NCBI RefSeq assembly: GCF_024704725.1
Contig: NZ_JALIQS010000001.1
Coordinates: 744,001-808,000, forward strand
DNA length: 64,000 bases
Reading direction: 5' to 3'
Origin: Shinella sp. CPCC 101442
Lineage (GTDB): Bacteria > Pseudomonadota > Alphaproteobacteria > Rhizobiales > Rhizobiaceae
Part shown: positions 18,994-36,600 of the stretch, in pieces
Position numbering within the stretch: position 1 is the first letter of the stretch
How the letters are laid out: each line of letters opens with the position of its first letter
Program-made: the position numbers and the translations under genes
Notes under the pieces: generated by a model
What the model saw: only the letters and a program-made list of their open reading frames with translations
What the model was told of the DNA's origin: nothing
The model's database searches: none

Positions 18994-20022
18994 TCAATCT
19001 CCCGATTTCTGTTTCTTTTCAGCCCGGTACGCATCGTAGAGGCGATCCAGGTTCTGCGTGATATAGGCGCCGAAAGCCGCGGCTTCCGCAGCTTTCAGAG
19101 CAATCGTGTATTGGCGGCCATTGCCCTTGATGCTGGCGCGGATCGAGCCATCCTTGCGCTCCCACGCGGCGGGGGCGGGTTTGACGGCATTTGTCGGCGT
19201 TTCGGCCTTGGAGAGGTGACCGCTCACAAGATTGAAACGCTCCTCCGGCGCGCGAACCCTGATCCGCTCCCGCCCGAGGAATTCGACGGCCCTATCCTCA
19301 TTGGCCGGCTCGTTGAAACGGGTCGCCAACTCGTGCCAACGATCGCGGCCGATGGCGAGCGCTGGGCCGATGCCGGTTCGCACCGCCTTCGGAATCCTGT
19401 TCACAACCGACAACATTTTTGAAACTGTCGTCTTGTCGATACTGAGTGCGGCCATGATCGTCTCACGATCAAAACCGCGACTTTCCAGTTCACCGGCAAA
19501 GGTCGCACGCTCCAGGAACGAGAGGTCTGCGCGGGCGCTGTTTTCCTGGCCCTGCGCGATAACGTGGTCGCGGTCGGTAAGGGCCTTGACTACCGCGCGC
19601 ACCGGGCGGCCGAGCAGGCGCGCCGCCTTTGCGCGGCGATGGCCAAAGGCGATCTGATAGACGCCGTCCTTTGTCGGGTGCGGACGCACGAGGATCGGCG
19701 AGTCCTGGCCGCGCACACGCATTGCATCCACCAGCTCCTGAAACTGCTGGTCGGAATGAGCAAGGCGATCCGAAACGAAGGAATCCTCGATCTGATCTGG
19801 CTCAAGCTCGATGACGACCTCTCCGGCCGTCAGCTTTGCTTCGATCTCCTTGGCCGCATCCGCCTTCGCCGCAAGTGCATCGATGCTGCGCGTCACCGCG
19901 CCGAGTGCTCCGATGCCCTTGTAGGTGACATGCTGGCGTTGCTCTTCCGCCACCGGGTTTACCGGCGTCAACTTGTCGTTGGCAGGGGCCATCAGATTGG
20001 AAAGAACGTTCTTGCGCGCCAT
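18994..20022 (-). CDS. repB: RepB, ParB-like partition protein
   Basis: Predicted 342-aa centromere-binding protein of the repABC partition system. It has a ParB/sulfiredoxin-type nucleotide-binding domain with GHRR at residues 127-130, then the ENSARADLSFLE box near 160. A helix-turn-helix follows (about 185-205: IMAALSIDKTTVSKMLSVV). The C-terminal part is for dimerisation. With RepA it segregates the replicon and autoregulates the operon. The ATG at 20022 is separated from the repA stop codon by one base, so the two genes are tightly coupled. Confidence 0.97.
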   Translation of the reverse strand: MARKNVLSNLMAPANDKLTPVNPVAEEQRQHVTYKGIGALGAVTRSIDALAAKADAAKEIEAKLTAGEVVIELEPDQIEDSFVSDRLAHSDQQFQELVDAMRVRGQDSPILVRPHPTKDGVYQIAFGHRRAKAARLLGRPVRAVVKALTDRDHVIAQGQENSARADLSFLERATFAGELESRGFDRETIMAALSIDKTTVSKMLSVVNRIPKAVRTGIGPALAIGRDRWHELATRFNEPANEDRAVEFLGRERIRVRAPEERFNLVSGHLSKAETPTNAVKPAPAAWERKDGSIRASIKGNGRQYTIALKAAEAAAFGAYITQNLDRLYDAYRAEKKQKSGD

Positions 20023-20023
20023 A

Positions 20024-21232
20024 TCAACGCCCCCATGCCTTATGGATCAGTTCGACGAGCTCCGAATTGACCGCTTCCATGGACTCGAACGCGCGGTCAT
20101 AGGTCGCGCGGGTGAACTGACTGCGGTCGACTTCGTAAAGCGTCTGGTTGGTCAGCGCGGCGTCGGCGATCGCGACGCTGCGCACCATCGGACTGGTCAG
20201 CACATGCTGCTTGAACATCGAGCGCATGAAGGCGACCATCTGGGTCTGCGGTCCGTCCGCCGGATCGTATCGGGTGACGAGGTAGCGCAGCCAATCCAGG
20301 TTCATGTTGCCACCCGCGCTCTTCAGCGTGTTCAACACCTCGCCGAGCATCTGCAGGAACTGGCACATCGACATGACGTCAAGCATCTGCGGATGCACGG
20401 TGATCAGCACCGCCGTCGCGCCGCAGATCGCGCTCATCGTCAAGAAACCGAGCTGCGGTGGGCAGTCGATGACCACTACGTCATAATCGTCGGCGACGGA
20501 GGACAGCGCCTCGTCGAGGCGGGCAAAGAAGATACGGCCATAATCGCCCCGGTTGCCCTGTGCCAGGACGCGCGGCGTATCGTGCTCGAACTCCATGAGT
20601 TCGAGATTGCCCGGCACGATATCGAGGCCTGGAAAATTCGTCTTGCGAATGATTTCCTTCAGCGGCCGGCGCTGGTCGTCGTAGCGGATGGCTGCGTAGA
20701 GCGTCTCGTTCTCGTTGACATCGAATTCCGGCTGGAAACCATGAATTGCCGAAAGACTGGCTTGTGGGTCGAGATCGACGGCGAGAACGCGGTGACCGGT
20801 GAGCGCGAGATGCTGCGCCAGATGCGCCGTCGTCGTGGTCTTGCCGGAACCGCCCTTGAAATTCACGACGGCCACGACCTGCAGATGCTCGCGGCCCTTT
20901 CGATGAGGAACGTAGCGCTGGCCACGGCTGTTCTGCTCCAGATACTTGCGCATCTCCTGGAGCTGGTCGGCGGAATAGGACCGGCGTCCGGACGGCGTTA
21001 CCTGCGGCAGCGGCCCCTTGGATTCCAGGGAGAGATTGCGCAGATAGCCACTGGTGACGCCAAGGAAATGCGCCGCCTCGCTCAGCTGAAACTGGCGCAG
21101 GGTCTTTTGCGCAACGGGCGGAAACATTTCCAGCCGATGCTGCTTCAGCTTGTCCGACAGCTCGTGCGCCTGACCAATGATCAGTTGATCGACCTCGGAA
21201 ATTGCCTGCCCGAACATTGCAGCCATATTCAT
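20024..21232 (-). CDS. repA: RepA, ParA-like partition ATPase
   Basis: Predicted 402-aa partition ATPase. An N-terminal helix-turn-helix region (QFQLSEAAHFLGVTSGYLRNL, cited only to show its place near residue 48) is followed by the deviant Walker A KGGSGKTT at 126-133 and VDLDPQ at 152-157, as in ParA proteins. RepA drives segregation with RepB and represses its own promoter. It is the first gene of repABC. The ATG at 21232 has a modest GAGATTAG upstream. The 278-bp gap upstream holds an inverted repeat that may be its operator. Confidence 0.97.
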   Translation of the reverse strand: MNMAAMFGQAISEVDQLIIGQAHELSDKLKQHRLEMFPPVAQKTLRQFQLSEAAHFLGVTSGYLRNLSLESKGPLPQVTPSGRRSYSADQLQEMRKYLEQNSRGQRYVPHRKGREHLQVVAVVNFKGGSGKTTTTAHLAQHLALTGHRVLAVDLDPQASLSAIHGFQPEFDVNENETLYAAIRYDDQRRPLKEIIRKTNFPGLDIVPGNLELMEFEHDTPRVLAQGNRGDYGRIFFARLDEALSSVADDYDVVVIDCPPQLGFLTMSAICGATAVLITVHPQMLDVMSMCQFLQMLGEVLNTLKSAGGNMNLDWLRYLVTRYDPADGPQTQMVAFMRSMFKQHVLTSPMVRSVAIADAALTNQTLYEVDRSQFTRATYDRAFESMEAVNSELVELIHKAWGR

Positions 21233-23973: not shown

Positions 23974-25455
23974 TCAGGCGACGTCGCCCATGCAGACGTA
24001 TTTCAGCTCCAGATAGTCGTCCGCGCCATGCGCCGAGCCTTCGCGACCGAGACCGGACTGCTTGATGCCGCCGAAAGGAGCGGCTTCGGAGGAGATGAGG
24101 CCTGTATTGACACCGACCATGCCGTATTCCAGCGCTTCCGTGACTTTCCAGACCTTCTTCAGGTCGCCGGCGAAGAAGTAGGCGGCAAGGCCGAATTCGG
24201 TGTCGTTGGCCTGCTCGATGACATCCTCGACCGTGTCGAAGCGGAAGAGCGGGGCGACGGGACCGAAGGTTTCTTCCCGGGCAACCGTCATGCCACGGGC
24301 AACGCCCTTCAACACCGTCGGCTCGAAGAAAGTGCCGTTGCCGGCGATCCGCTTGCCGCCAGCAACGACGGTGGCGCCCTTGGAAACCGCATCGGCGATA
24401 TGAGCCTCGACCTTGTCGATGGCCGCTTCCTCGATCAGCGGGCCGATGGTTACGCCCTTGTCAAAACCGTTGCCGACAGAAAGCTCGGCGACCTTCTTCG
24501 CCAGCTTCTCGGCGAAGGCGTCATAGACATTCGACTGGACGTAGATACGGTTGGCGCAGACGCAGGTCTGGCCCGCATTGCGGTACTTCGACACCATCGC
24601 GCCTTCGACGGCCGCGTCGAGATTGGCGTCGTCGAACACGATGAAGGGTGCGTTGCCACCGAGCTCCAGGCTCACCTTCTTGATCTGGTCGGAGCACTGG
24701 CGCATCAGGATGCGACCGACTTCCGTCGAACCCGTGAAGGAGATTTTCCGGACTTTCGGGTTGAAGCAGAGTTCCTTGCCGATCGCCGGGCCGTCTGTGC
24801 CGAGGATCACGTTGAAGACACCGGCCGGAATGCCGGCCTTTTCCGCCAGCACGGCAAGGGCGATTGCCGAAAGCGGCGTCTGCTCGGCGGGCTTGGAGAC
24901 CACCGTGCAGCCGACGGCGAGCGCCGGAGCAATCTTGCGGGCGATCATCGCGGCCGGAAAGTTCCACGGCGTGATCGTGCCGACGACGCCGACCGGCTGC
25001 TTGATGACGAGCATGCGCTTGTCGACGGACGGGGCAGGGATCGTCTCGCCGTTGATGCGCTTGGCTTCCTCCGCATACCATTCGACATAGGAGGCGGCGT
25101 AGAGGATTTCACCCCTGGCTTCCGGCAGGGGCTTGCCCATTTCGGCAGTCAGGATGGCGGCGAGTTCGTCGGCATTGGCGATGATCAGGTCGTGCCACTT
25201 GCGCAGCAGCACGCTGCGGTCCTTGGCCGGGCGGGCGGCCCAGACGGCCTGCGCCTTGTAGGCGGCGTCGATCGCAGCAGCCGTCTCGGTCGCACCCATT
25301 TCCGGCAGGGTCGCAAGCTTTTCGCCGGTCGCGGGGTTGAAGACGTCGAAGGTCTCGGCGCCGTTGCCGCCGATCCAGTTGCCATTGACATAGCCTGCAT
25401 CGCGCAGGAATTCGGTCGACTTCAGGTGCCGGGTGAGAGCATCGTAGAAGGCCAT
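23974..25455 (-). CDS. gabD: NAD(P)-dependent succinate-semialdehyde dehydrogenase
   Basis: Predicted 493-aa aldehyde dehydrogenase that oxidises succinate semialdehyde to succinate. The general base Glu is at 264 (SLELGGNAP) and the catalytic Cys at 298 (NAGQTCVC). The neighbouring Cys at 300 is typical of the SSADH family. The cofactor-binding ITPWNFP and TGSTEVGR segments are present. It lies 95 bp downstream of gabT on the same strand, completing the GABA shunt. Confidence 0.93.
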   Translation of the reverse strand: MAFYDALTRHLKSTEFLRDAGYVNGNWIGGNGAETFDVFNPATGEKLATLPEMGATETAAAIDAAYKAQAVWAARPAKDRSVLLRKWHDLIIANADELAAILTAEMGKPLPEARGEILYAASYVEWYAEEAKRINGETIPAPSVDKRMLVIKQPVGVVGTITPWNFPAAMIARKIAPALAVGCTVVSKPAEQTPLSAIALAVLAEKAGIPAGVFNVILGTDGPAIGKELCFNPKVRKISFTGSTEVGRILMRQCSDQIKKVSLELGGNAPFIVFDDANLDAAVEGAMVSKYRNAGQTCVCANRIYVQSNVYDAFAEKLAKKVAELSVGNGFDKGVTIGPLIEEAAIDKVEAHIADAVSKGATVVAGGKRIAGNGTFFEPTVLKGVARGMTVAREETFGPVAPLFRFDTVEDVIEQANDTEFGLAAYFFAGDLKKVWKVTEALEYGMVGVNTGLISSEAAPFGGIKQSGLGREGSAHGADDYLELKYVCMGDVA

Positions 25456-25550: not shown

Positions 25551-26828
25551 TCAGGCGGCGCGGGCTTCGATCATCGCAGCTTCGAGGATGTCGAGCGCCT
25601 CGGCGAAAACCTCGTCCTGGATGGTGATCGGTGCGAGGAAGCGAATGACGTTGCCATGCACGCCGCAGGTGAGCAGGATCAGCCCCTTTTCGAGGGCTTT
25701 CAGGCGCACCTTGTTGGCGAATTCGGCGCTCGGCTGCTTCGTCGCGACGTCGTTGAACTCGACGGCATTCATGAAGCCCGGACCACGGATATCGACGATC
25801 TCGGGGATCTTGTCCTGCAGGGAGGCGAGACGCTGCTTGAGGCGCGCACCGAGATTTTCGGCGCGGTTGCAGAGATCCTCATCCTTGATGACGTCGAGAA
25901 CGGCATGGGCCGCCGCGACACCGATCGGGCTGCCAGCATAGGTGCCGCCGAGGCCACCGGGGCCGGGTGCATCCATGATTTCGGCGCGGCCGGTGACGGC
26001 GGCGATCGGGAAGCCGCCGCCAAGGCCCTTGGCCATCGTCATCAGGTCAGCTGCGATGCCGTAGTGTTCCATGGCGAAGAGCTTGCCGGTACGGGCAAAG
26101 CCGGTCTGCACTTCATCAGCGATGAGCAGGATACCGTGCTGGTCGCAGATTTCGCGCAGCGCCTTCATGAAGCTGACCGGTACCGGATAGAAGCCGCCTT
26201 CGCCCTGGACCGGCTCGACGATGATCGCGGCGACGCGGTTCGGGTCGACGTCAGCGGCAAACAGCTTCTTCAGAACGGAAAGCGACTGCTCGACCGTCGT
26301 GCCATGCATCTCGACCGGGAACGGCGCGTGATAGACATCGGCCGGCATGGCGCCGAAACCGACCTTGTAGGGTACGACCTTGCCGGTCAGTGCCATGCCC
26401 ATGAAAGTGCGGCCGTGGAAGCTGCCGGTGAAGGCAATGACCGCCTGGCGGCCGGTGGCGGCGCGGGCGATCTTCACAGCGTTTTCAACGGCTTCGGCAC
26501 CGGTCGTGACGAAGATCGTCTTCTTGGCGAAGTTGCCGGGCGTGATGGAGTTCAGGCGTTCGGCGAGCTCGACATAGTTTTCGTAGGGCACGACCTGGTG
26601 GCAGGTGTGCGTAAAGCGGTCGAGCTGGTTCTTGACGGCTTCGATAACACGCGGATGGCGGTGGCCGGTGTTGACCACGGCGATACCGGCGGCGAAATCG
26701 ATGTAGCGGTTGCCTTCCTTGTCCCAGATTTCCGCATTCTCCGCGCGATCTGCATAGATCTGCGTGGTCATGCCGACGCCGCGCGAAATGGCGGCGTTCT
26801 TGCGATCGGTAAGGGTCGTGGCGGTCAT
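25551..26828 (-). CDS. gabT: 4-aminobutyrate aminotransferase
   Basis: Predicted 425-aa class III, PLP-dependent aminotransferase that converts 4-aminobutyrate and 2-oxoglutarate to succinate semialdehyde and glutamate. The PLP-contact IADEVQTGFARTG (D238) is seen. The Schiff-base lysine is K267 in MAKGLGGGFPIAAVTG. Length and the VVNTGHRHPRV segment fit GabT. AGGA precedes the ATG at 26828. The gene heads the operon with gabD and is divergent from the MerR-XRE-cupin regulator, which probably controls it. Confidence 0.93.
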   Translation of the reverse strand: MTATTLTDRKNAAISRGVGMTTQIYADRAENAEIWDKEGNRYIDFAAGIAVVNTGHRHPRVIEAVKNQLDRFTHTCHQVVPYENYVELAERLNSITPGNFAKKTIFVTTGAEAVENAVKIARAATGRQAVIAFTGSFHGRTFMGMALTGKVVPYKVGFGAMPADVYHAPFPVEMHGTTVEQSLSVLKKLFAADVDPNRVAAIIVEPVQGEGGFYPVPVSFMKALREICDQHGILLIADEVQTGFARTGKLFAMEHYGIAADLMTMAKGLGGGFPIAAVTGRAEIMDAPGPGGLGGTYAGSPIGVAAAHAVLDVIKDEDLCNRAENLGARLKQRLASLQDKIPEIVDIRGPGFMNAVEFNDVATKQPSAEFANKVRLKALEKGLILLTCGVHGNVIRFLAPITIQDEVFAEALDILEAAMIEARAA

Positions 26829-26924
26829 GGCGCTATCCTGAATCTGGAGGCTTCGTTTCGTTCTGGTCTCACCGCGATTCCGAGCGCAAAACCGCTTCGC
26901 ACTTTTGCTGAAATCGCTTTAACT

Positions 26925-26941
26925 TACATTTTTTCTGCAAG
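26925..26941. promoter_or_regulatory. Direct repeat copy 1 (TACATTTTTTCTGCAAG)
   Basis: Exact 17-bp repeat, with copy 2 at 26958-26974. The copies are 33 bp apart in the same orientation (about three helical turns) in the gap between gabT and the divergent regulator gene. Candidate binding site of that regulator. Confidence 0.6.
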
Positions 26942-26957
26942 TATCAAGTGGAATTCC

Positions 26958-26974
26958 TACATTTTTTCTGCAAG
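26958..26974. promoter_or_regulatory. Direct repeat copy 2 (TACATTTTTTCTGCAAG)
   Basis: Identical to the copy at 26925-26941. A GGAATTCC palindrome (26950-26957) lies immediately before it. Confidence 0.6.
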
Positions 26975-27076
26975 AATGCAACCGGCATTTTACGCGGACA
27001 ATGCGACGGTTTTTCGGGCCGGACCCGACGTGGCGAGTGCTATAAGAAACCATATACAGAATCAGGGATTGGCGCG

Positions 27077-27892
27077 ATGGGTTCCGAGGAACCGGTGCAC
27101 TACAAGGTGGCGGAGGCCGCGCGGCTCGCCGGCGTTTCCGCCTCGACACTCAGGCTTTGGGAAACGCAGGGGCTCGTCATTCCCGGCCGTTCCGAGACCG
27201 GGCACAGGCAATATAGCGCCGACGACGTCGTCCGGCTGAAGCGTATCGCCTGGTATCGTACCGAACGCGGGCTCAATCCGGCCGCGATACGCGAAGCGCT
27301 GGAGGCGGAGGATCCCGCCATCGACAGCACCGCCACCGAAGGCGACACGCCGCAGGGTGTCGGCCGCAAGCTGCGCAGCCTCCGGCACGACGCGGGCAAA
27401 ACGCTGGAGCAGGTCGCCGGTGACATCGGCATCGCAACTTCCGTGCTTTCCACGTTCGAGCGCACCTCCCAGGGCGTGACCTTTCGCGTGCTGCATGATC
27501 TCGCGGAATATTACGGCACGACCGTCTCAAAACTTTCCGGTGAGGAAGAGAGCGACAATCGCTCCGTCGTCCGTGCCGGGGAATGGAAATTCTGGCCCGA
27601 GACGTCTCCCGGCGTGACGGTGCAGGTCCTGGCCGACGGGCGCAACATGATGGATTGCCACCGCTTCGTTCTGGCCCCCGGCGCCTCCTCGGACGGCGCC
27701 TACAAACACGAAGGCGAGGAATTCGTGCACGTGCTTTCCGGCCGCATCGAGATGGTGCTCGACGGCCAGGAATTCCACGACCTCGGCCCCGGCGACAGCC
27801 TCTATTTCGAAAGCGCCCGGCGTCATGCCTGGCGCAACCGTCACCACGGCGAGACGGTGCTCATCTGGATCAACACCCCACCGACCTTCTGA
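27077..27892 (+). CDS. Three-domain regulator: MerR HTH, XRE HTH and cupin
   Basis: Predicted 271-aa regulator with an unusual domain order. Residues 8-76 are a MerR-type winged helix-turn-helix (VAEAARLAGVSASTLRLWE, then TGHRQYSADDVVRLKRI). Residues 95-155 are an XRE/Cro-type helix-turn-helix (GRKLRSLRHDAGKTLEQVA, then LSTFERTSQG). Residues 195-268 are a cupin sensor domain (KHEGEEFVHVLSGRIEMVL, then LGPGDSLYFESARRHAWRN). XRE-cupin fusions are common regulators of amine and amino-acid catabolism, but the extra MerR domain is not usual. It is divergent from gabT, with two direct repeats between. I chose the ATG at 27077, since upstream codons lie in the repeat region. Confidence 0.88.
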   Translation: MGSEEPVHYKVAEAARLAGVSASTLRLWETQGLVIPGRSETGHRQYSADDVVRLKRIAWYRTERGLNPAAIREALEAEDPAIDSTATEGDTPQGVGRKLRSLRHDAGKTLEQVAGDIGIATSVLSTFERTSQGVTFRVLHDLAEYYGTTVSKLSGEEESDNRSVVRAGEWKFWPETSPGVTVQVLADGRNMMDCHRFVLAPGASSDGAYKHEGEEFVHVLSGRIEMVLDGQEFHDLGPGDSLYFESARRHAWRNRHHGETVLIWINTPPTF

Positions 27893-30393: not shown

Positions 30394-31827
30394 TCAGGCC
30401 GCATCGGGCCGGTGAACGGTCTTCACTTCGAGGAAGTCCTCGAGGCCGAACAGGCCCCCCTCGCGTCCGTTACCCGACTGCTTGTAGCCGCCGAAGGGGC
30501 TGCCATAACGGTGCGGACCGCCGTTGATATGCACCATGCCGGCACGCAGACGCGCAGCGACGCGCTCCGCGCGATCCGGATTGCCGGTCTGGAGATAGGC
30601 GGCGAGGCCGTAGGCGGTGTCGTTGGCGATCGCGATCGCTTCCTCTTCCGTGTCGAAGGGGATGATCGACAGCACGGGACCGAACACTTCTTCGCGGGCG
30701 ATGCGCATGTCGTTGTTGACGTCGGCGAAGATCGTCGGCTTGACGAAATAGCCGGTCTCGAAACCCTCTGGCTTGCCGGGACCGCCGACGAGCACGCGCG
30801 CACCTTCCGCCACGCCCGCCTCGATCAGCGCCTGAACGCGGCCGAACTGGATGTGCGAGACGAGCGGGCCGATATGCTCGCCAGCCTCTTCCGGATTGCC
30901 GACGCGGGCTTCCTTGCCGGTGCGCTCGGCGATTTCCACAACCTTGTCATAGACGGAACGCTCGACGAGCATGCGGGTCGGCGCGTCGCAGGACTGGCCG
31001 GAATTGTTGAAGCATTCGCGCACGCTGCCGGCAACGCGATCTTCGAGATCAGCGTCGGCGAAGACGAGGTTCGGCGACTTGCCGCCGAGTTCCAGCGTCA
31101 CGCGCTTGACCGTCTCGGCCGCATCCTTGCTGACGGCGATGCCGGCACGGGTGGAGCCGGTAAAGGACATCATGTCGACGTCCTTGTGCTTGGAGAGGGC
31201 AGCACCGCATTCGAGACCGTCGCCGTTGACGAGGTTGAACGTGCCCGCAGGGAAGCCGGCCTCGTGCACCATCTCCGCATAGAGCAGGGCGTTAAGGGGC
31301 GTGAACTCCGAGGGCTTCAGCACGCAGGTGCTGCCCGTCGCCAGTGCCGGCACGACCTTCAGCGCGATCTGGTTGATCGGCCAGTTCCACGGCGTGATGA
31401 GACCACACACACCGATAGGCTCGCGGCGCACAACGTCGCCGTTCGGCAGCACGTCGCGGGCCTTCAGGCGCTTCAGGCCGTCGATAAAGCCCTGGAGGTG
31501 GCCGACGCCGACATCCGCCTGCTGCTCGGTGCTCATGGAGATCGGCGCGCCGAGTTCCAGCGTGATCGTGCGTGCCATCTCCTCATAGCGGCGCTTGTAG
31601 ATCTTGAGCAGCTTTTCGAGCAGTGCAAGGCGCTCCTCGACGCTGGTCTGGCTATAGGTCGCAAACGCCATCTTGGCAGCGGCGACGGCGCGGTCGATAT
31701 CGGCCGCGGTGCCCATGGTGATGACCGCGATCGGCTTTTCCGTCGCCGGATTGATCACGGCGAGGTCATTGGCCTTCAGCGGATCCACCCACTGCCCGTC
31801 GATGTAGAATTTGCGTTTGTCGAGCAT
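30394..31827 (-). CDS. Aldehyde dehydrogenase (cluster A)
   Basis: Predicted 477-aa NAD(P)-dependent aldehyde dehydrogenase. General base Glu is at 246 (LELGGKSPN) and nucleophile Cys at 280 (NNSGQSCDAPTR). ITPWNWPINQIALKV and FGGYKQSGNGREGG are family segments. The ARTITLELGAPISMS region places it outside the GabD type. It is last in the operon after the ABC importer and MBL-fold gene, 12 bp behind the latter, so it probably oxidises an aldehyde made from the imported substrate. The natural aldehyde is unknown. Confidence 0.9.
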   Translation of the reverse strand: MLDKRKFYIDGQWVDPLKANDLAVINPATEKPIAVITMGTAADIDRAVAAAKMAFATYSQTSVEERLALLEKLLKIYKRRYEEMARTITLELGAPISMSTEQQADVGVGHLQGFIDGLKRLKARDVLPNGDVVRREPIGVCGLITPWNWPINQIALKVVPALATGSTCVLKPSEFTPLNALLYAEMVHEAGFPAGTFNLVNGDGLECGAALSKHKDVDMMSFTGSTRAGIAVSKDAAETVKRVTLELGGKSPNLVFADADLEDRVAGSVRECFNNSGQSCDAPTRMLVERSVYDKVVEIAERTGKEARVGNPEEAGEHIGPLVSHIQFGRVQALIEAGVAEGARVLVGGPGKPEGFETGYFVKPTIFADVNNDMRIAREEVFGPVLSIIPFDTEEEAIAIANDTAYGLAAYLQTGNPDRAERVAARLRAGMVHINGGPHRYGSPFGGYKQSGNGREGGLFGLEDFLEVKTVHRPDAA

Positions 31828-31839
31828 GCTTTTCTCCCG

Positions 31840-32568
31840 TCACTTCTGTTTTTCATCGAGCCAGCCCTTGATGAGCTGGCGGTAGCGTTCGCCGCCGAAA
31901 CTTGGAAAATGGCCACCGTGCACCAGCCGCACCGGCAGGGTCAGGAGCCGCTCCATCGAGGCGATATAGTCAATCCCATCGGAATGATAGGTATCCTCGA
32001 TCAGCGGACCGTCATAGACGATGTCGCCGGAGAACAGAATTTCCGTTGCCTTTTCGTAGAGCGCAATACCCCCTGGGGAGTGGCCCGGCGTGTGGATGAC
32101 CTCGAAATGGCGATTGCCGAGGTCGATCACGTCACCATCTTCGAGAATGCGCGTCGCCGGCGCCTTCTTCACGGCGTAGCATTTCGAGCAATAGGGCTCG
32201 GGTGGTAGCGCATCGAAGATTTCGTCCGTGACATAGGGATCGGCCAGCGTGTTTTCCCGCGTCGGATTGGCGAGAAGATCGGCCTCTGCCGAATGCACGG
32301 CGCGGCATTCGAATTCGTGATGGCAGCCGATATGGTCGAAATGGGTGTGGCTCGCCACCGCGATCAGATCTCGCTCCGTCACCAGCGGCACCCACGCGGT
32401 GAGAGAAACGACGCCCATGCCGCTATCGACCAGCATGTCTCGGTCACGACCGCGCACATGCCAGATATTGCAGCGATAGAACTCCTGGATATAGGGTTCC
32501 GAGATCGAGGTCACGTCGTCGTCGATGCGACGCACGCTGTACCAATCCTCGGGGCGGATGCGCCGCAT
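31840..32568 (-). CDS. MBL-fold metallo-hydrolase
   Basis: Predicted 242-aa metallo-beta-lactamase-fold hydrolase. The zinc motif HxHxDH is HTHFDH at residues 74-79. The HTPGHSPGG and FSGDIVYDG segments provide further metal ligands, and a late HGGHFPSFGG supplies the last histidine. Two cysteines (SKCYA region) lie in an insertion. Substrates of this family range from thioesters and lactones to glyoxalase II-type compounds. It starts 5 bp after the ATPase gene and precedes the aldehyde dehydrogenase, so it probably acts in the same pathway. Confidence 0.85.
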   Translation of the reverse strand: MRRIRPEDWYSVRRIDDDVTSISEPYIQEFYRCNIWHVRGRDRDMLVDSGMGVVSLTAWVPLVTERDLIAVASHTHFDHIGCHHEFECRAVHSAEADLLANPTRENTLADPYVTDEIFDALPPEPYCSKCYAVKKAPATRILEDGDVIDLGNRHFEVIHTPGHSPGGIALYEKATEILFSGDIVYDGPLIEDTYHSDGIDYIASMERLLTLPVRLVHGGHFPSFGGERYRQLIKGWLDEKQK

Positions 32569-32573
32569 AGACC

Positions 32574-33659
32574 TTACACTCCCGCTCCGTCCTCAAGCAC
32601 GACGATGCTATCCGCCTTCAGCCGAAGGTCAAGCTCGGCACCGACTTCAGGACTGTCGGTCTGGGGTAGATGCGCGGTAAGCGTCGTGCCGTCGGCCGAT
32701 ACATGGCAACGATGATGCGTGCCGAAGAAGGCGCTGCCGGTGATACGTCCGCGGCCGAGCGACACGGTCGGCGCATCCGCATTGGCGCTGCGGAAATGCT
32801 CCGGGCGGATGCAGAGCGTGACCGCACGACCCGCCACCGGGTGACCGGATGTGAAGGCGGAAGCGGGGAGGACGACGCGGCCAAGCGCCGTTTCCACCTC
32901 AACCTCGCCCCCGGATGCGCCAAGCACCCTGGCCGGCAGGAAATTGGCCTCGCCCATGAAGCCGGCCGAGAACAGCGAGCGCGGGCGCATATAGATCGAG
33001 GCCGGCGTACCGACATCCTCGATTCGCCCCTTGTTCATCACGACGATACGGTCGGCGATCGCCATCGCCTCCTCCTGATCGTGCGTGACATGGACGAAGG
33101 TCGTGCCGACACGCTTCTGGATAGCCTTCAGCTCATCCTGCATCTGCCGGCGCAGTTTCAGATCGAGCGCACCGAGCGGCTCGTCGAGCAGCAGCACGTC
33201 GGGATCGACGGCAAGCGCCCGGGCGAGGGCGACACGCTGGCGCTGGCCGCCGGACAATTCATGCGGCTTCTTGGCGGATGACGCCTTGAGCCCGACGAGG
33301 TCCAGATAGGAGAAAGCCTTCTCGAAGCGTTCGGCCTTGCCCATGCCGCGCATCCTGAGGCCGAAGCCGACATTGTCGCGCAGGCACATATGCGGGAACA
33401 ACGCATAATCCTGGAACATCGTCGTCGTCGGGCGCTTGGCAGGCGAGACATGTGTCATATCGCGCCCGCCAATCGATATCATCCCGGAGGTCGGTTCGAT
33501 GAAACCGCCGAGGATGGAGAGCAGGGTGGTCTTGCCGCAACCGGAGGGGCCGAGCAGCACGATGAACTCGCCGGCGGCGATATCGAGCGAGACATCGTCG
33601 AGTGCCCGGAATGCACCGAAGACCTTGGTGGCATTGCGGATGGAAAGGTCGGCGGTCAT
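32574..33659 (-). CDS. ABC transporter ATPase, polyamine type (cluster A)
   Basis: Predicted 361-aa ATP-binding subunit of a PotA-like importer. Walker A is GPSGCGKT at 37-44, the signature [15 protein letters not shown] is near 133, and Walker B LLLDEPLGALD and the switch VTHDQEEAM follow. The C-terminal 110 residues form a TOBE-type regulatory domain. It would power uptake with the two permeases just upstream; the gene overlaps the second permease gene by four bases (ATGA). Cluster A order is binding protein, permease, permease, ATPase, MBL hydrolase, aldehyde dehydrogenase. Confidence 0.94.
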   Translation of the reverse strand: MTADLSIRNATKVFGAFRALDDVSLDIAAGEFIVLLGPSGCGKTTLLSILGGFIEPTSGMISIGGRDMTHVSPAKRPTTTMFQDYALFPHMCLRDNVGFGLRMRGMGKAERFEKAFSYLDLVGLKASSAKKPHELSGGQRQRVALARALAVDPDVLLLDEPLGALDLKLRRQMQDELKAIQKRVGTTFVHVTHDQEEAMAIADRIVVMNKGRIEDVGTPASIYMRPRSLFSAGFMGEANFLPARVLGASGGEVEVETALGRVVLPASAFTSGHPVAGRAVTLCIRPEHFRSANADAPTVSLGRGRITGSAFFGTHHRCHVSADGTTLTAHLPQTDSPEVGAELDLRLKADSIVVLEDGAGV

Positions 33660-34444
33660 GAGGATTTCCCGGTTTTGCGGAAGACGGTGAATTCCATCAC
33701 GACGAGGAACGCAACGGAAATGAGGAAGACGATGCTGCCGATGGCGTTCGTCTTGGGGTCGAGGCCGGATCGCAGCATGCTCCAGATTTCCACCGGCAGC
33801 GTCACGTCGAAGCGCGACAGCAGGAACGCGACGATGAACTCATCCCAGCTGAAGGTGACGGACAGGAAGAAGGCGGCCAGGATCGACGGCAGCAGCATGG
33901 GTGCGGTGACAAGCAGCATGACCTGCCAGTCCTTGGCGCCGAGGTCGCGTGCCGCCCGCTCGATGTTCACCTGATGCCCGCCCATCGACGCGTAGATGAT
34001 GGCAAAGCAGAGCGGCAGGTTGATCACCACATGGCCGATGCCGACGGTGACGAGCGAAAGCCTGAGACCGGAGATGTTCAGCATCGAGAGCAGACCAAGC
34101 CCGATGATCAGCGTGCTGACCGTCATCGGCGCGACGATGAGGCCGCGCAGAAGGCCGGATGCAGGCAGCGTATAGCGGGCAAAGGCATAGGCCGCGAGGA
34201 AACCGAGAACGCAGGCGACGGCAGACGAGATCACCGCGACGAGCAGCGAGTTTCCAAGCGCCGCCATCAGCTTTCCATCGGCGAAAATCGCCTCGTACCA
34301 GCGCAGCGTCAGTCCGTTCAACGGCGGCACCGGCAGGCTGCCATCCTGAAAGGAGAAGAGCACCAGCACGACGACCGGCAGGAAGATGAAGAGGTAGATG
34401 AGGCCCGCATAAAGGGCGGCAAGGGCGGTGGAAAGGTGGCGCAT
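33656..34444 (-). CDS. ABC permease, PotC-like (cluster A)
   Basis: Predicted 262-aa inner-membrane permease with six transmembrane segments. It carries the family EAA loop, ERAARDLGAKDWQVMLLVTAP, and the typical FSWDEFIVAFLLS and TLPVEIWSMLR segments of PotC-type subunits. GAGGA precedes the ATG at 34444, which I prefer to an upstream ATG at 34471. The gene starts 2 bp after its partner permease and overlaps the ATPase gene. The two permeases form the membrane channel. Confidence 0.93.
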   Translation of the reverse strand: MRHLSTALAALYAGLIYLFIFLPVVVLVLFSFQDGSLPVPPLNGLTLRWYEAIFADGKLMAALGNSLLVAVISSAVACVLGFLAAYAFARYTLPASGLLRGLIVAPMTVSTLIIGLGLLSMLNISGLRLSLVTVGIGHVVINLPLCFAIIYASMGGHQVNIERAARDLGAKDWQVMLLVTAPMLLPSILAAFFLSVTFSWDEFIVAFLLSRFDVTLPVEIWSMLRSGLDPKTNAIGSIVFLISVAFLVVMEFTVFRKTGKSS

Positions 34445-34446
34445 GG

Positions 34447-35316
34447 TCAGGTCCTCTCCATCTTGAGCCAACGAGCGCAGGCGATATAGGCAAGCGTGAC
34501 GACGACCATCAGCACGAGCGAAAGGGCTGCCGCCATCGGGAAATCCGCCCGCCTTCCAAGTTGCAGCATGATGACCTGGGGCAGTACCAGTTCGTTATTG
34601 CCCCCGAGGATCTGCGGCGTGATGTAATCGCCGATGCACAGCACGAAAGTGAGGAACGCGCCGACCATGATGCCGGGCAACGTCAGCGGCAGCACGACGA
34701 ACCAGAAGGTCTGGAAGGCGTTTGCGCCGAGGTCGGCCGCGGCGCGGCGGTAATTCGGCGAAAGCTGGATGAGATTGGCGTAGATCGTCAGCGTCAGCAG
34801 CATGACGAAGAAATGCACAAAACCGATGACCGTCCCGGTACGGTTTGCCGAAAGCTCCAGCGGTTCGGCGACGATGCCGAGCCACAGCAGCGCCTGGTTG
34901 ACGACGCCGCCCTTGGAAAGCACCAGAAGCCACGAATAGGAGCGGACCACATAGGACGTCCAGAACGGCAGGATCGCCATGATGAGGGCGACGCGCTGCC
35001 ATTTCTTCGGGACACGCTCGGCGATGATCCAGGCCAGCGGATAGGCGAGCAGGATGGAAATGACGGTCACTGTCGCCGTGATTTCCAGCGACACGACAAG
35101 CCCCTTGAAGAAATGGGCTTTCCCGAAAAAGGCGACGTAGTTGTCGAGCGTCCAGGTCGCGACGATCTCGCGCCCCTGCCGCGTCCAGAAACTGATCGCC
35201 GCCATATAGGCGAAGGGCACCAGGAAGAAGAACCCCGTCCAGAGCAGCGCCGGTAGGGCAAAGGCCCAGGCCTTGCGGCGCTCCGTGCGTTCTAAGGCTG
35301 TGGCGGCCATGGGCAT
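34447..35316 (-). CDS. ABC permease, PotB-like (cluster A)
   Basis: Predicted 289-aa permease with six transmembrane segments and an EAA-type loop near residue 200 (RRAAADLGANAFQTFWFVVLPLTLPG region). The N-terminal part has a long periplasmic segment with WTLDNYVAFFG, typical of PotB subunits. CGGAG lies five bases upstream of the ATG at 35316. It follows the binding-protein gene after a 116-bp gap with a strong hairpin. Confidence 0.92.
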   Translation of the reverse strand: MPMAATALERTERRKAWAFALPALLWTGFFFLVPFAYMAAISFWTRQGREIVATWTLDNYVAFFGKAHFFKGLVVSLEITATVTVISILLAYPLAWIIAERVPKKWQRVALIMAILPFWTSYVVRSYSWLLVLSKGGVVNQALLWLGIVAEPLELSANRTGTVIGFVHFFVMLLTLTIYANLIQLSPNYRRAAADLGANAFQTFWFVVLPLTLPGIMVGAFLTFVLCIGDYITPQILGGNNELVLPQVIMLQLGRRADFPMAAALSLVLMVVVTLAYIACARWLKMERT

Positions 35317-35393
35317 GACACTCCGTTGACGCTGCAGCCTAGCCCAGCGCGGATCGAATTCCAGCGTATTTCAGAGGGGGAACGTTGGGCGTT

Positions 35394-35415
35394 ACCCTCC
35401 CCCGGAGGGGAGGGT
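35394..35415 (-). repeat. Stem-loop after the cluster A binding-protein gene
   Basis: Perfect 9-bp stem (ACCCTCCCC and GGGGAGGGT) with a CGGA loop, 17 bp past the binding-protein stop codon and without a T-run. It could protect the upstream mRNA and lower permease expression relative to the binding protein. Confidence 0.75.
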
Positions 35416-35432
35416 GGTCCACCGCATCAAGC

Positions 35433-36509
35433 TTACTGCTGGAGCGTTTCCGTCCAGATATCCTGCATCGCGGCGTCCATGTCGGCGTCCGCCACCGGAT
35501 AGAGTTGCGAGTTCTTCAGATATTCAGGCTGCTTGTCCCAGCGAAGCGCCGTCTTTTGCTGGTCGGTCAGGTGCGCACCCGCCTTGGCATTGGCCGGCAT
35601 CGCCCAGTAGCAGGCGGAGGTCGCAAGCCGTGCCTGGCCCTCGGGGCTGACGATGTACTGCACGAACTTCAGCGCGAGATCCTGCTTTTCCGAATCCTTG
35701 AAGACGCCGATCGATTGTGCCCAGCGCAGCGCTCCTTGCTTGGGGATCGTCCAGTCGAGATTGGGCTTTTCCGCCGAGAGGCCGGCCGTCAGCCACTCAC
35801 CGCCGCCCACGACGATATCGACCTCCCCGGTCGCCAATGCGGTCTGCGAGGCGACGACGTCGCTCACCTGGCGGGCGACCTTCTTCATCTCGAAGAGCTT
35901 TTCCTTGATCGCCGGCAGGTCGTCCTGCTTGAGATCGGCGGTCTTCTTGCCGATGCCGACAGCCGTCAGGCCAACCATCGGGAGATAGTAGTCATAGAGC
36001 GCGATACGGCCCTTGTACTTGTCCGACCAGACCACCGAGAGGTCTTCCATATCGGCCGGGTCGACCTTCGTCTTGTCGTAGGAAATCGTGTTGTAGCCGA
36101 ATTTTTCGGTGACCGCGTAGACCTTGCCGCCCTTGGTCGTCGTCGCGTCCATGCGCACTTCCGGGAAGAGATCGTTGAGCGGCAGCTTGTCGGCCGGCAT
36201 TTCACCGAGGATGTCCATGTCGATGGCGCGCGGTACGTCGACGGCGTCGATGACCAGCACATCCCAATCGCCGGGGCGGGATTGCTCGATGATCGAGATC
36301 GCAGCACCCGTGCCCTCGTATTCCTTGAGATTGACCTTGACGTTGTTGGCCTTCTCGAACGGCTCGACAAGCGCCGGATCGGTGTGGTCGCACCAGACGA
36401 GCGCATTCAGTTCGTCCTGCGCACTCGCACCGGCGGGCAGGAGCGAAACGGCGGCGGTGGCAAGCAGCATGCGGCGGGCAAACCCACCGGAAACGGTTCT
36501 TTTCATCAT
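35433..36509 (-). CDS. Polyamine-type ABC binding protein (cluster A)
   Basis: Predicted 358-aa periplasmic binding protein of the PotD/PotF type. The signal peptide ends at GASAQ. The mature protein begins DELNALVWCDHTDPALVEPFEKANN, as in this family, and has VYAVTEKFGYNTISYDK and GEVDIVVGGGEWL. It binds a linear amine, amino acid or related solute. Two adjacent ATG codons (36509 and 36506) follow GAGGGA, and the second has better spacing. It is the first gene of the operon and is divergent from a TetR regulator. Confidence 0.88.
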   Translation of the reverse strand: MMKRTVSGGFARRMLLATAAVSLLPAGASAQDELNALVWCDHTDPALVEPFEKANNVKVNLKEYEGTGAAISIIEQSRPGDWDVLVIDAVDVPRAIDMDILGEMPADKLPLNDLFPEVRMDATTTKGGKVYAVTEKFGYNTISYDKTKVDPADMEDLSVVWSDKYKGRIALYDYYLPMVGLTAVGIGKKTADLKQDDLPAIKEKLFEMKKVARQVSDVVASQTALATGEVDIVVGGGEWLTAGLSAEKPNLDWTIPKQGALRWAQSIGVFKDSEKQDLALKFVQYIVSPEGQARLATSACYWAMPANAKAGAHLTDQQKTALRWDKQPEYLKNSQLYPVADADMDAAMQDIWTETLQQ

Positions 36510-36577
36510 CTTTCCCTCTGGCTGAAGGCTTTTGGCCCTGGCGAATGGCGCTCGTTGCGACGCCTTGAGAAAAAGAT

Positions 36578-36589
36578 TGAACGAGTTCA
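36578..36589. promoter_or_regulatory. Palindrome TGAACGAGTTCA in the TetR/SBP gap
   Basis: Inverted repeat with arms TGAAC and GTTCA in the 127-bp gap between the divergent TetR and cluster A genes. Together with the dyad at 36601-36621 it is a candidate TetR operator. Confidence 0.4.
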
Positions 36590-36600
36590 TTTTTTAAGTC

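Follow-up and report, generated by a model that had tools for sequence, protein, structure and literature searches.

Regulator gene and divergent gabT-gabD pair

The window, by which we mean the whole 64-kb stretch of DNA analysed here, contains at 27077–27892 on the plus strand an open reading frame for a gabR-like regulator of 271 amino acids. Pfam domains in this protein are a MerR-type winged helix-turn-helix (HTH) at residues 9–77 (27101–27307, plus strand; MerR_1, E 1.2e-19), an XRE (Cro/CI-type) HTH at residues 96–150 (27362–27526, plus strand; HTH_31, E 2.3e-15) and a cupin sensor domain at residues 196–265 (27662–27871, plus strand; Cupin_2, E 7e-18), all of which exceed the Pfam cut-offs. 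A sequence-only reading of this DNA had proposed just such a three-part order. It is borne out by the Pfam scan, in which MerR_1, HTH_31 and Cupin_2 were each found in 58 of 58 orthologs as well; loss or degeneration of one HTH was looked for in these orthologs and not seen. Residues S23, T24, R26 and W28 in the recognition region of the MerR head, S122, L124, S125 and E128 in that of the XRE head, and Y209, H211, E215 and H250 in the cupin domain are invariant across the 58 orthologs. In an AF2 model made with 23 sequences (pLDDT 85, pTM 0.53), both heads and the cupin are folded and the linkers are loose at 81–91 and around 160–170; a helix at 68–78 precedes the disordered stretch 81–91 (pLDDT below 50), after which the XRE helices begin. 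The top Foldseek structure for this model is the XRE-cupin protein 1y9q, and sequence matches in the PDB each take in a single domain: the MerR head, the cupin or, weakly, the XRE head.

The regulator resembles the XRE-cupin regulators (PuuR of E. coli; PauR, PsdR and ErfA of Pseudomonas) in having an XRE HTH followed by a single cupin. It differs from the typical members in its extra N-terminal MerR head (residues 9–77), which makes it an atypical XRE-cupin protein, and in an operator that is often doubled. The PuuR model NF007408 aligns over residues 93–271 with a score of 55.4 bits against a cut-off of 211, and thus the regulator is not PuuR. The N-terminal winged HTH (MerR_1) is shared with the MerR family, of both the classical and the TnrA/GlnR/HspR type, but in place of the long coiled-coil C-terminal dimerisation helix of classical MerR proteins there is a second HTH and a cupin. 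Two proteins called GabR, one from Bacillus (MocR/GntR type) and one from B. thuringiensis (a sigma-54 activator), are alike in controlling gabT in response to GABA; as described in excerpts of the literature, however, they are unrelated to the window regulator, the former consisting of a GntR HTH and an aminotransferase domain and the latter of PAS-AAA+-HTH. Neither a GntR HTH nor an aminotransferase-like PLP domain is present among the Pfam matches of the regulator up to E 1.

Divergent from the regulator gene, with 248 bp between the two start codons, lies the presumed target, gabT (25551–26828, minus strand), for a 4-aminobutyrate--2-oxoglutarate transaminase (NF005692, 858 bits against a cut-off of 724). 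The presumed second gene of the operon, gabD (23974–25455, minus strand), for a succinate-semialdehyde dehydrogenase (SSADH), scores 728 bits against the SSADH subfamily cut-off of 646 (TIGR01780). Because only 95 bp separate gabT and gabD on the same strand, the two are probably co-transcribed. The GABA context that had been proposed for the regulator is upheld.

Dyads in the regulator–gabT gap

The 248-bp gap holds two exact copies of TACATTTTTTCTGCAAG, at 26925 and 26958; this pair of 17-bp repeats, 33 bp apart, had been described in the sequence-only reading, and the 33-bp spacing recurs in relatives. Elsewhere in the genome the sequence has five nearest places, each with 3 mismatches. When the base to its left is included, each repeat departs from a 17-bp inverted repeat at a single arm base, and therefore we treat the units as dyads: a gabT-proximal dyad TTACA-TTTTTTC-TGCAA (26924–26940), holding the first repeat copy (26925–26941), and a gabT-distal dyad CTACA-TTTTTTC-TGCAA (26957–26973), holding the second (26958–26974), neither being assigned to a strand. 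Both are near-perfect dyads of the pattern YTRCA-N7-TGYAR, which occurs only twice within the 64-kb window. Perfect arms (TTGCA..TGCAA or CTACA..TGTAG) are frequent in relatives, the two sides then differing together, and in many Rhizobium gaps the 7-bp core is variable and the arms constant.

Read on the gabT strand, an AT-rich hexamer, GTTAAA (26918–26923, minus strand), comes immediately after the proximal dyad; it is a possible –10 element that is conserved in relatives as GATAAT, GTTATT or TATATT. There is little conservation at the expected –35, and in a clade of regulators at 58% identity no consistent hexamer follows the dyad. A consensus scan found no sigma-70 promoter in the gap. In classical MerR promoters the dyad lies in a spacer of 19–20 bp between –35 and –10, whereas here a hexamer adjoins the proximal dyad and no –35 stands out. 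Since the conserved hexamer adjoins the proximal dyad, the dyads would overlie the likely gabT promoter. An attenuator or terminator was also considered, and none was found in the 248 bp.

Conservation of the dyads was examined at 123 loci with a divergent gabT, which gave 109 distinct gaps; these are related rather than independent sequences, and some represent one species twice with slightly different DNA. An exact dyad is present in 96 of the 109 and a single-mismatch dyad in the other 13, so that absence of the repeats beside orthologous gene pairs, which would have refuted the sequence-only reading, was looked for and is not the case. In 200 rounds of dinucleotide shuffling, a mean of 0.34 and a maximum of 4 gaps contained a dyad, and none contained two. 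A chance repeat is rejected, given that no copy elsewhere in the genome is closer than 3 mismatches and that 96/109 orthologous gaps have the dyad. Two dyads are found in 55 of the 109 gaps, 31–34 bp apart in all but one of the 55 (start-to-start spacing 33 in 40, 32 in 9, 34 in 4, 31 in 1 and 28 in 1). Gaps with a sole dyad occur in the 58%-identity clade, and the existence of such gaps means that the pair is not obligatory; in Ensifer-like gaps, the proximal dyad is good and the distal one degraded.

Five bases past the distal dyad, within TGCAA at 26977–26981, stands a CAA element (26979–26981, plus strand). CAA at +6 to +8 after the dyad, with five bases between, was found for all 71 distal or sole dyads scored, that is, in the 55 two-dyad gaps and in 16 of 19 gaps from the 58%-identity clade, and for 0 of 55 proximal dyads. 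In the single-dyad gaps of the close clade, where the exact dyad may be proximal or distal, it is present in 10 of 25.

A stricter form of the pattern, YTRCANNNNTTCTGYAR, has two matches in the whole 6.1-Mb genome, both in the regulator–gabT gap; a reversed control pattern gave two genome matches, and chance matches of that order are therefore to be expected. Binding elsewhere in the genome, which would have weakened the earlier proposal, is thus not suggested by the strict pattern, and a wider regulon in the window genome was rejected for lack of a further strict match. The first pattern used, TNCATTTTTTCTGYARR, matches in 34 of 247 genomes of the family. The regulator is present in 27 of these 34, and in 26 of the 27 the match lies in the regulator–gabT gap or, in genome G219, before gabT, while the match of the 27th, G204, is an exact dyad in a different gap; the seven genomes without the regulator (G006, G056, G072, G115, G126, G228 and G242) have one match each, that of G126 being inside a 786-aa ORF.

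Dyads outside gabT are found in two relatives. Genome G231 has a second exact, identical dyad 5 kb from the regulator (L219, 8489–8505), upstream of a minus-strand gene for an SBP_bac_8 solute-binding protein of transporter type, which is possibly a second target. Genome G204 has an exact dyad (L090, near 2693; C4:985693–985709) in the gap upstream of a 426-aa ORF and adjoining a GyrB-like ORF, with the regulator on another contig; this too is a possible additional target. Some relatives may therefore have a wider regulon. Besides the window genome, 25 regulator-bearing genomes were scanned, G231 and the genome of L110 among them; the strict pattern gave scattered single matches away from gabT, and recurrent matches such as TTGCATGGCTTCTGCAG in several genomes may represent the coding sequence of one gene.

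Near gabTD, on the minus strand of the window, a run of genes at 30394–36590 encodes an aldehyde dehydrogenase, a metallo-beta-lactamase-fold protein and an ABC transporter with an SBP_bac_8 protein. This run is possibly a cluster for the uptake of amines or GABA; no dyad precedes it, and the window holds no third dyad anywhere. A tie between its ABC transporter (32574–36590) and that of G231 was rejected, as the binding proteins are not significantly alike and there is no third dyad.

Distribution of the regulator and of the dyads

Orthologs of the regulator (E 1.7e-56 or better) occur in 45 of the 247 family genomes, 40 of which have gabT next to the regulator gene in divergent orientation. 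The regulator lies apart from gabT in G219, G178, G106 and G236, and a 40%-identical homolog in G105 has no adjoining gabT. In G057 and G107 the regulator was matched in two pieces each. The G057 pieces are in different frames, so the gene there is split in the linker; the frame break falls between the MerR and XRE heads (L033, 1238–2058) and could reflect a frameshift, an assembly error or two chains. Outside the family (E 1e-40; members of the window's family excluded) the regulator is rare, being found in 9 of 297 genomes drawn from the order, 1 of 289 from the class and 2 of 299 from the phylum. Among named genomes, at least 80 loci belong to Shinella, Rhizobium, Ensifer/Sinorhizobium, Mycoplana, Pararhizobium and others; judged by this protein, the closest named relatives among these loci are Shinella, the S. 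curvata regulator being 97% identical to that of the window.

Plasmid records with a regulator match number 119; among the 15 of these that are listed, the gene is named 'MerR family transcriptional regulator' in 10, and no gene is given in 5. One plasmid, NZ_CP084753.1, has its match at the coordinates of the G219 regulator (C2:414822–415634); it is labelled Roseateles, whereas G219 belongs to the same genus group as the window, and the organism name looks wrong. The window carries RepB-type and ParA/RepA-type partition genes at 18994–21232, and its contig resembles a repABC replicon, either a plasmid or a chromid.

The four genomes in which the regulator has moved away connect the sites with the regulator. 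The dyad is kept by gabT in all four: in G219, where 177 kb separate the two genes, both dyads remain with gabT, and in G178, G106 and G236 a single dyad with an altered core still stands before gabT. The control consisted of 24 gabT upstream regions from 23 regulator-less genomes, L082 being left out as a gabT paralog of G236, a regulator-bearing genome. These were drawn from 28 (E 1e-150 or better) plus 80 (E 1e-190 or better), that is, 108 of the 202 regulator-less genomes in the family draw. None of the 24 has an exact dyad (0/14 at gabT identity of at least 72%, 0/10 at 57–61%), and one of them, L068, has a one-mismatch dyad. The contrast of 4/4 with 0/24 agrees with the proposed link between sites and regulator. 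No dyad was found in the 8.5 to 12 kb of DNA examined around each of the four moved regulators. Autoregulation is therefore not general, and the dyad, which stays with gabT, would serve as operator chiefly for gabT and less for the regulator gene. The suggestion that two heads per subunit call for a paired site is not supported as a rule, in view of the sole-dyad gaps of the 58%-identity clade and the one dyad in three of the four moved-regulator genomes.

Proposed mode of control and distant relatives

The regulator probably controls GABA breakdown genes in rhizobia and their relatives via these mirror-symmetric sites. The account that we favour, and consider likely, is that the gene is the rhizobial gabR, encoding a local, ligand-released repressor that acts on the divergent gabT-gabD through the dyads; binding, ligand, sign of control and the assignment of heads to sites we infer, while the architecture, the dyads, their conservation and their association with the presence of the regulator are observed. 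The name gabR at the gabDT locus is already in print: in R. leguminosarum, a gene so named is grouped with gabD and gabT (gabDTR), according to passages of PMC6421345. At the loci of R. johnstonii 3841 (L110) and R. leguminosarum the ortholog adjoins gabT and runs the opposite way, as in the window, and by its place the R. leguminosarum gabR is very likely the same gene.

The cupin domain would sense GABA or a close metabolite. A regulator dimer would bind the 17-bp dyad in the gabT promoter region and occupy the promoter, most likely repressing gabT, until released by the ligand. Where there are two dyads at a distance of about three turns, as in the close clade, two dimers would sit on one face of the DNA and may give tighter control. 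By the title of Prell 2002, gabT is reportedly induced by GABA. This title, together with the statement in passages of PMC6421345 that gabDTR are reportedly about 80-, 65- and 7-fold up in pea bacteroids, is the reason for taking GABA as the inducer.

For a local, GABA-responsive regulator of gabTD, a repressor is more likely than an activator as the best reading, because the XRE-cupin precedents repress and the dyads lie over the likely promoter. According to passages of PMC7901475, those XRE-cupin regulators of P. aeruginosa whose regulons have been defined act as repressors through palindromic sites on core promoters, and each except PauR has one or two targets adjacent to its own gene. Local action, a palindromic site and a place in amine or amino-acid catabolism are likenesses that the window regulator would share with the XRE-cupin proteins, as excerpts describe them; in its sequence, the few-target palindromic operator near its own gene appears as two dyads and no other strict match in the genome.

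The hexamer-like sequence beside the dyad and the poor –35 would suit an activator too. A MerR-type activator, with a dimer on the dyad between the –35 and –10 of gabT, a ligand that realigns a poor promoter and a secondary XRE head, draws on the AT hexamer directly after the proximal dyad, the weak conservation at –35, the missing consensus sigma-70 promoter and the induction of gabT by GABA in the title of Prell 2002. TnrA and GlnR, of the MerR family, have sites that are 17-bp 5-7-5 dyads, and the present dyad has the same shape. We nevertheless regard this activator as rather unlikely: the hexamer is inconsistent in the 58%-identity clade, the model shows no long dimerisation helix (helix 68–78, then disorder at 81–91), and the XRE-cupin precedents in passages of PMC7901475 are repressors.

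The distal dyad agrees with the sole dyad seen in the 58%-identity clade, and its extra CAA might be read by a second head. Tentatively, both unlike HTHs may read one composite operator, the dimerized head on the dyad and the other on CAA, fixing the direction, with the proximal dyad a later cooperative addition. It is improbable that each subunit instead bridges two DNA segments, the unlike heads reading the two dyads or forming a small loop. Both heads are intact in 58/58 orthologs, 54 of the 55 gaps with two dyads have them about three turns apart, and four of seven racemase-fused relatives (L056–L059) have a second dyad-like element 28–30 bp on; but both window sites share one sequence while the heads differ, sole-dyad gaps exist, also before gabT in moved-regulator genomes, and 33 bp is short for a DNA loop. 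Least probable of all is another gabT regulator, for example of Lrp/AsnC type, whose sites may look like such dyads and which would make the neighbouring gene a bystander and explain why the dyad remains with gabT when the genes are separated, for the dyad tracks the presence of the regulator in the genome (4/4 against 0/24) and related elements stand upstream of distant homologs without an adjoining gabT.

With repression through the dyads as the favoured account, a presumed regulator of GABA catabolism genes gains a domain layout and a testable operator code, and lends itself to the question of why a single subunit has retained two unlike DNA-binding domains throughout a large clade. The excerpts of open-licence literature searched gave no description of a MerR-XRE-cupin protein or a YTRCA-N7-TGYAR operator and nothing on point for a racemase fusion of such a regulator; in passages of PMC4113996, a term search gave no mention of cupin, fusion or MerR-family.

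Among the distant homologs, one at 46% identity (L054, L180), without adjoining gabT, carries an exact dyad, TTACAGAAACAATGTAA, between itself and a divergent SBP_bac_8 gene; of 1000 shuffles of this upstream region, 3 produced an exact dyad. Upstream of L052 there is no dyad, and upstream of L060 and L061 neither a dyad nor the element CTACAT-N4-TCTG, which counts against a universal site. Seven homologs at 34–39% identity (L055–L061) lie within open frames of 629–721 aa. CTACAT-N4-TCTG stands upstream of five of the seven, with 0 mismatches in L055 and L056 and 2 mismatches in L057–L059; in 60 shuffling rounds it was found at a mean of 0.75 and a maximum of 2 loci, with no exact one. In L056–L059 the element 28–30 bp after it is a one-mismatch dyad.

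A proline racemase domain follows the cupin in both fused homologs scanned (L056 and the ORF of G324, the genome of L061), so that the regulator is joined directly to a catabolic enzyme. By domain scan, the MerR-XRE-cupin-proline racemase fusions lie at 424–2577 of L056 (minus strand) and 8021–9913 of L178 (minus strand), are about 630–717 aa long, and in L178 the fusion gene heads an operon. The G324 operon with the fusion gene includes ABC-transporter parts, a second proline racemase and an aldehyde dehydrogenase, and looks, from this content, like one for hydroxyproline catabolism.
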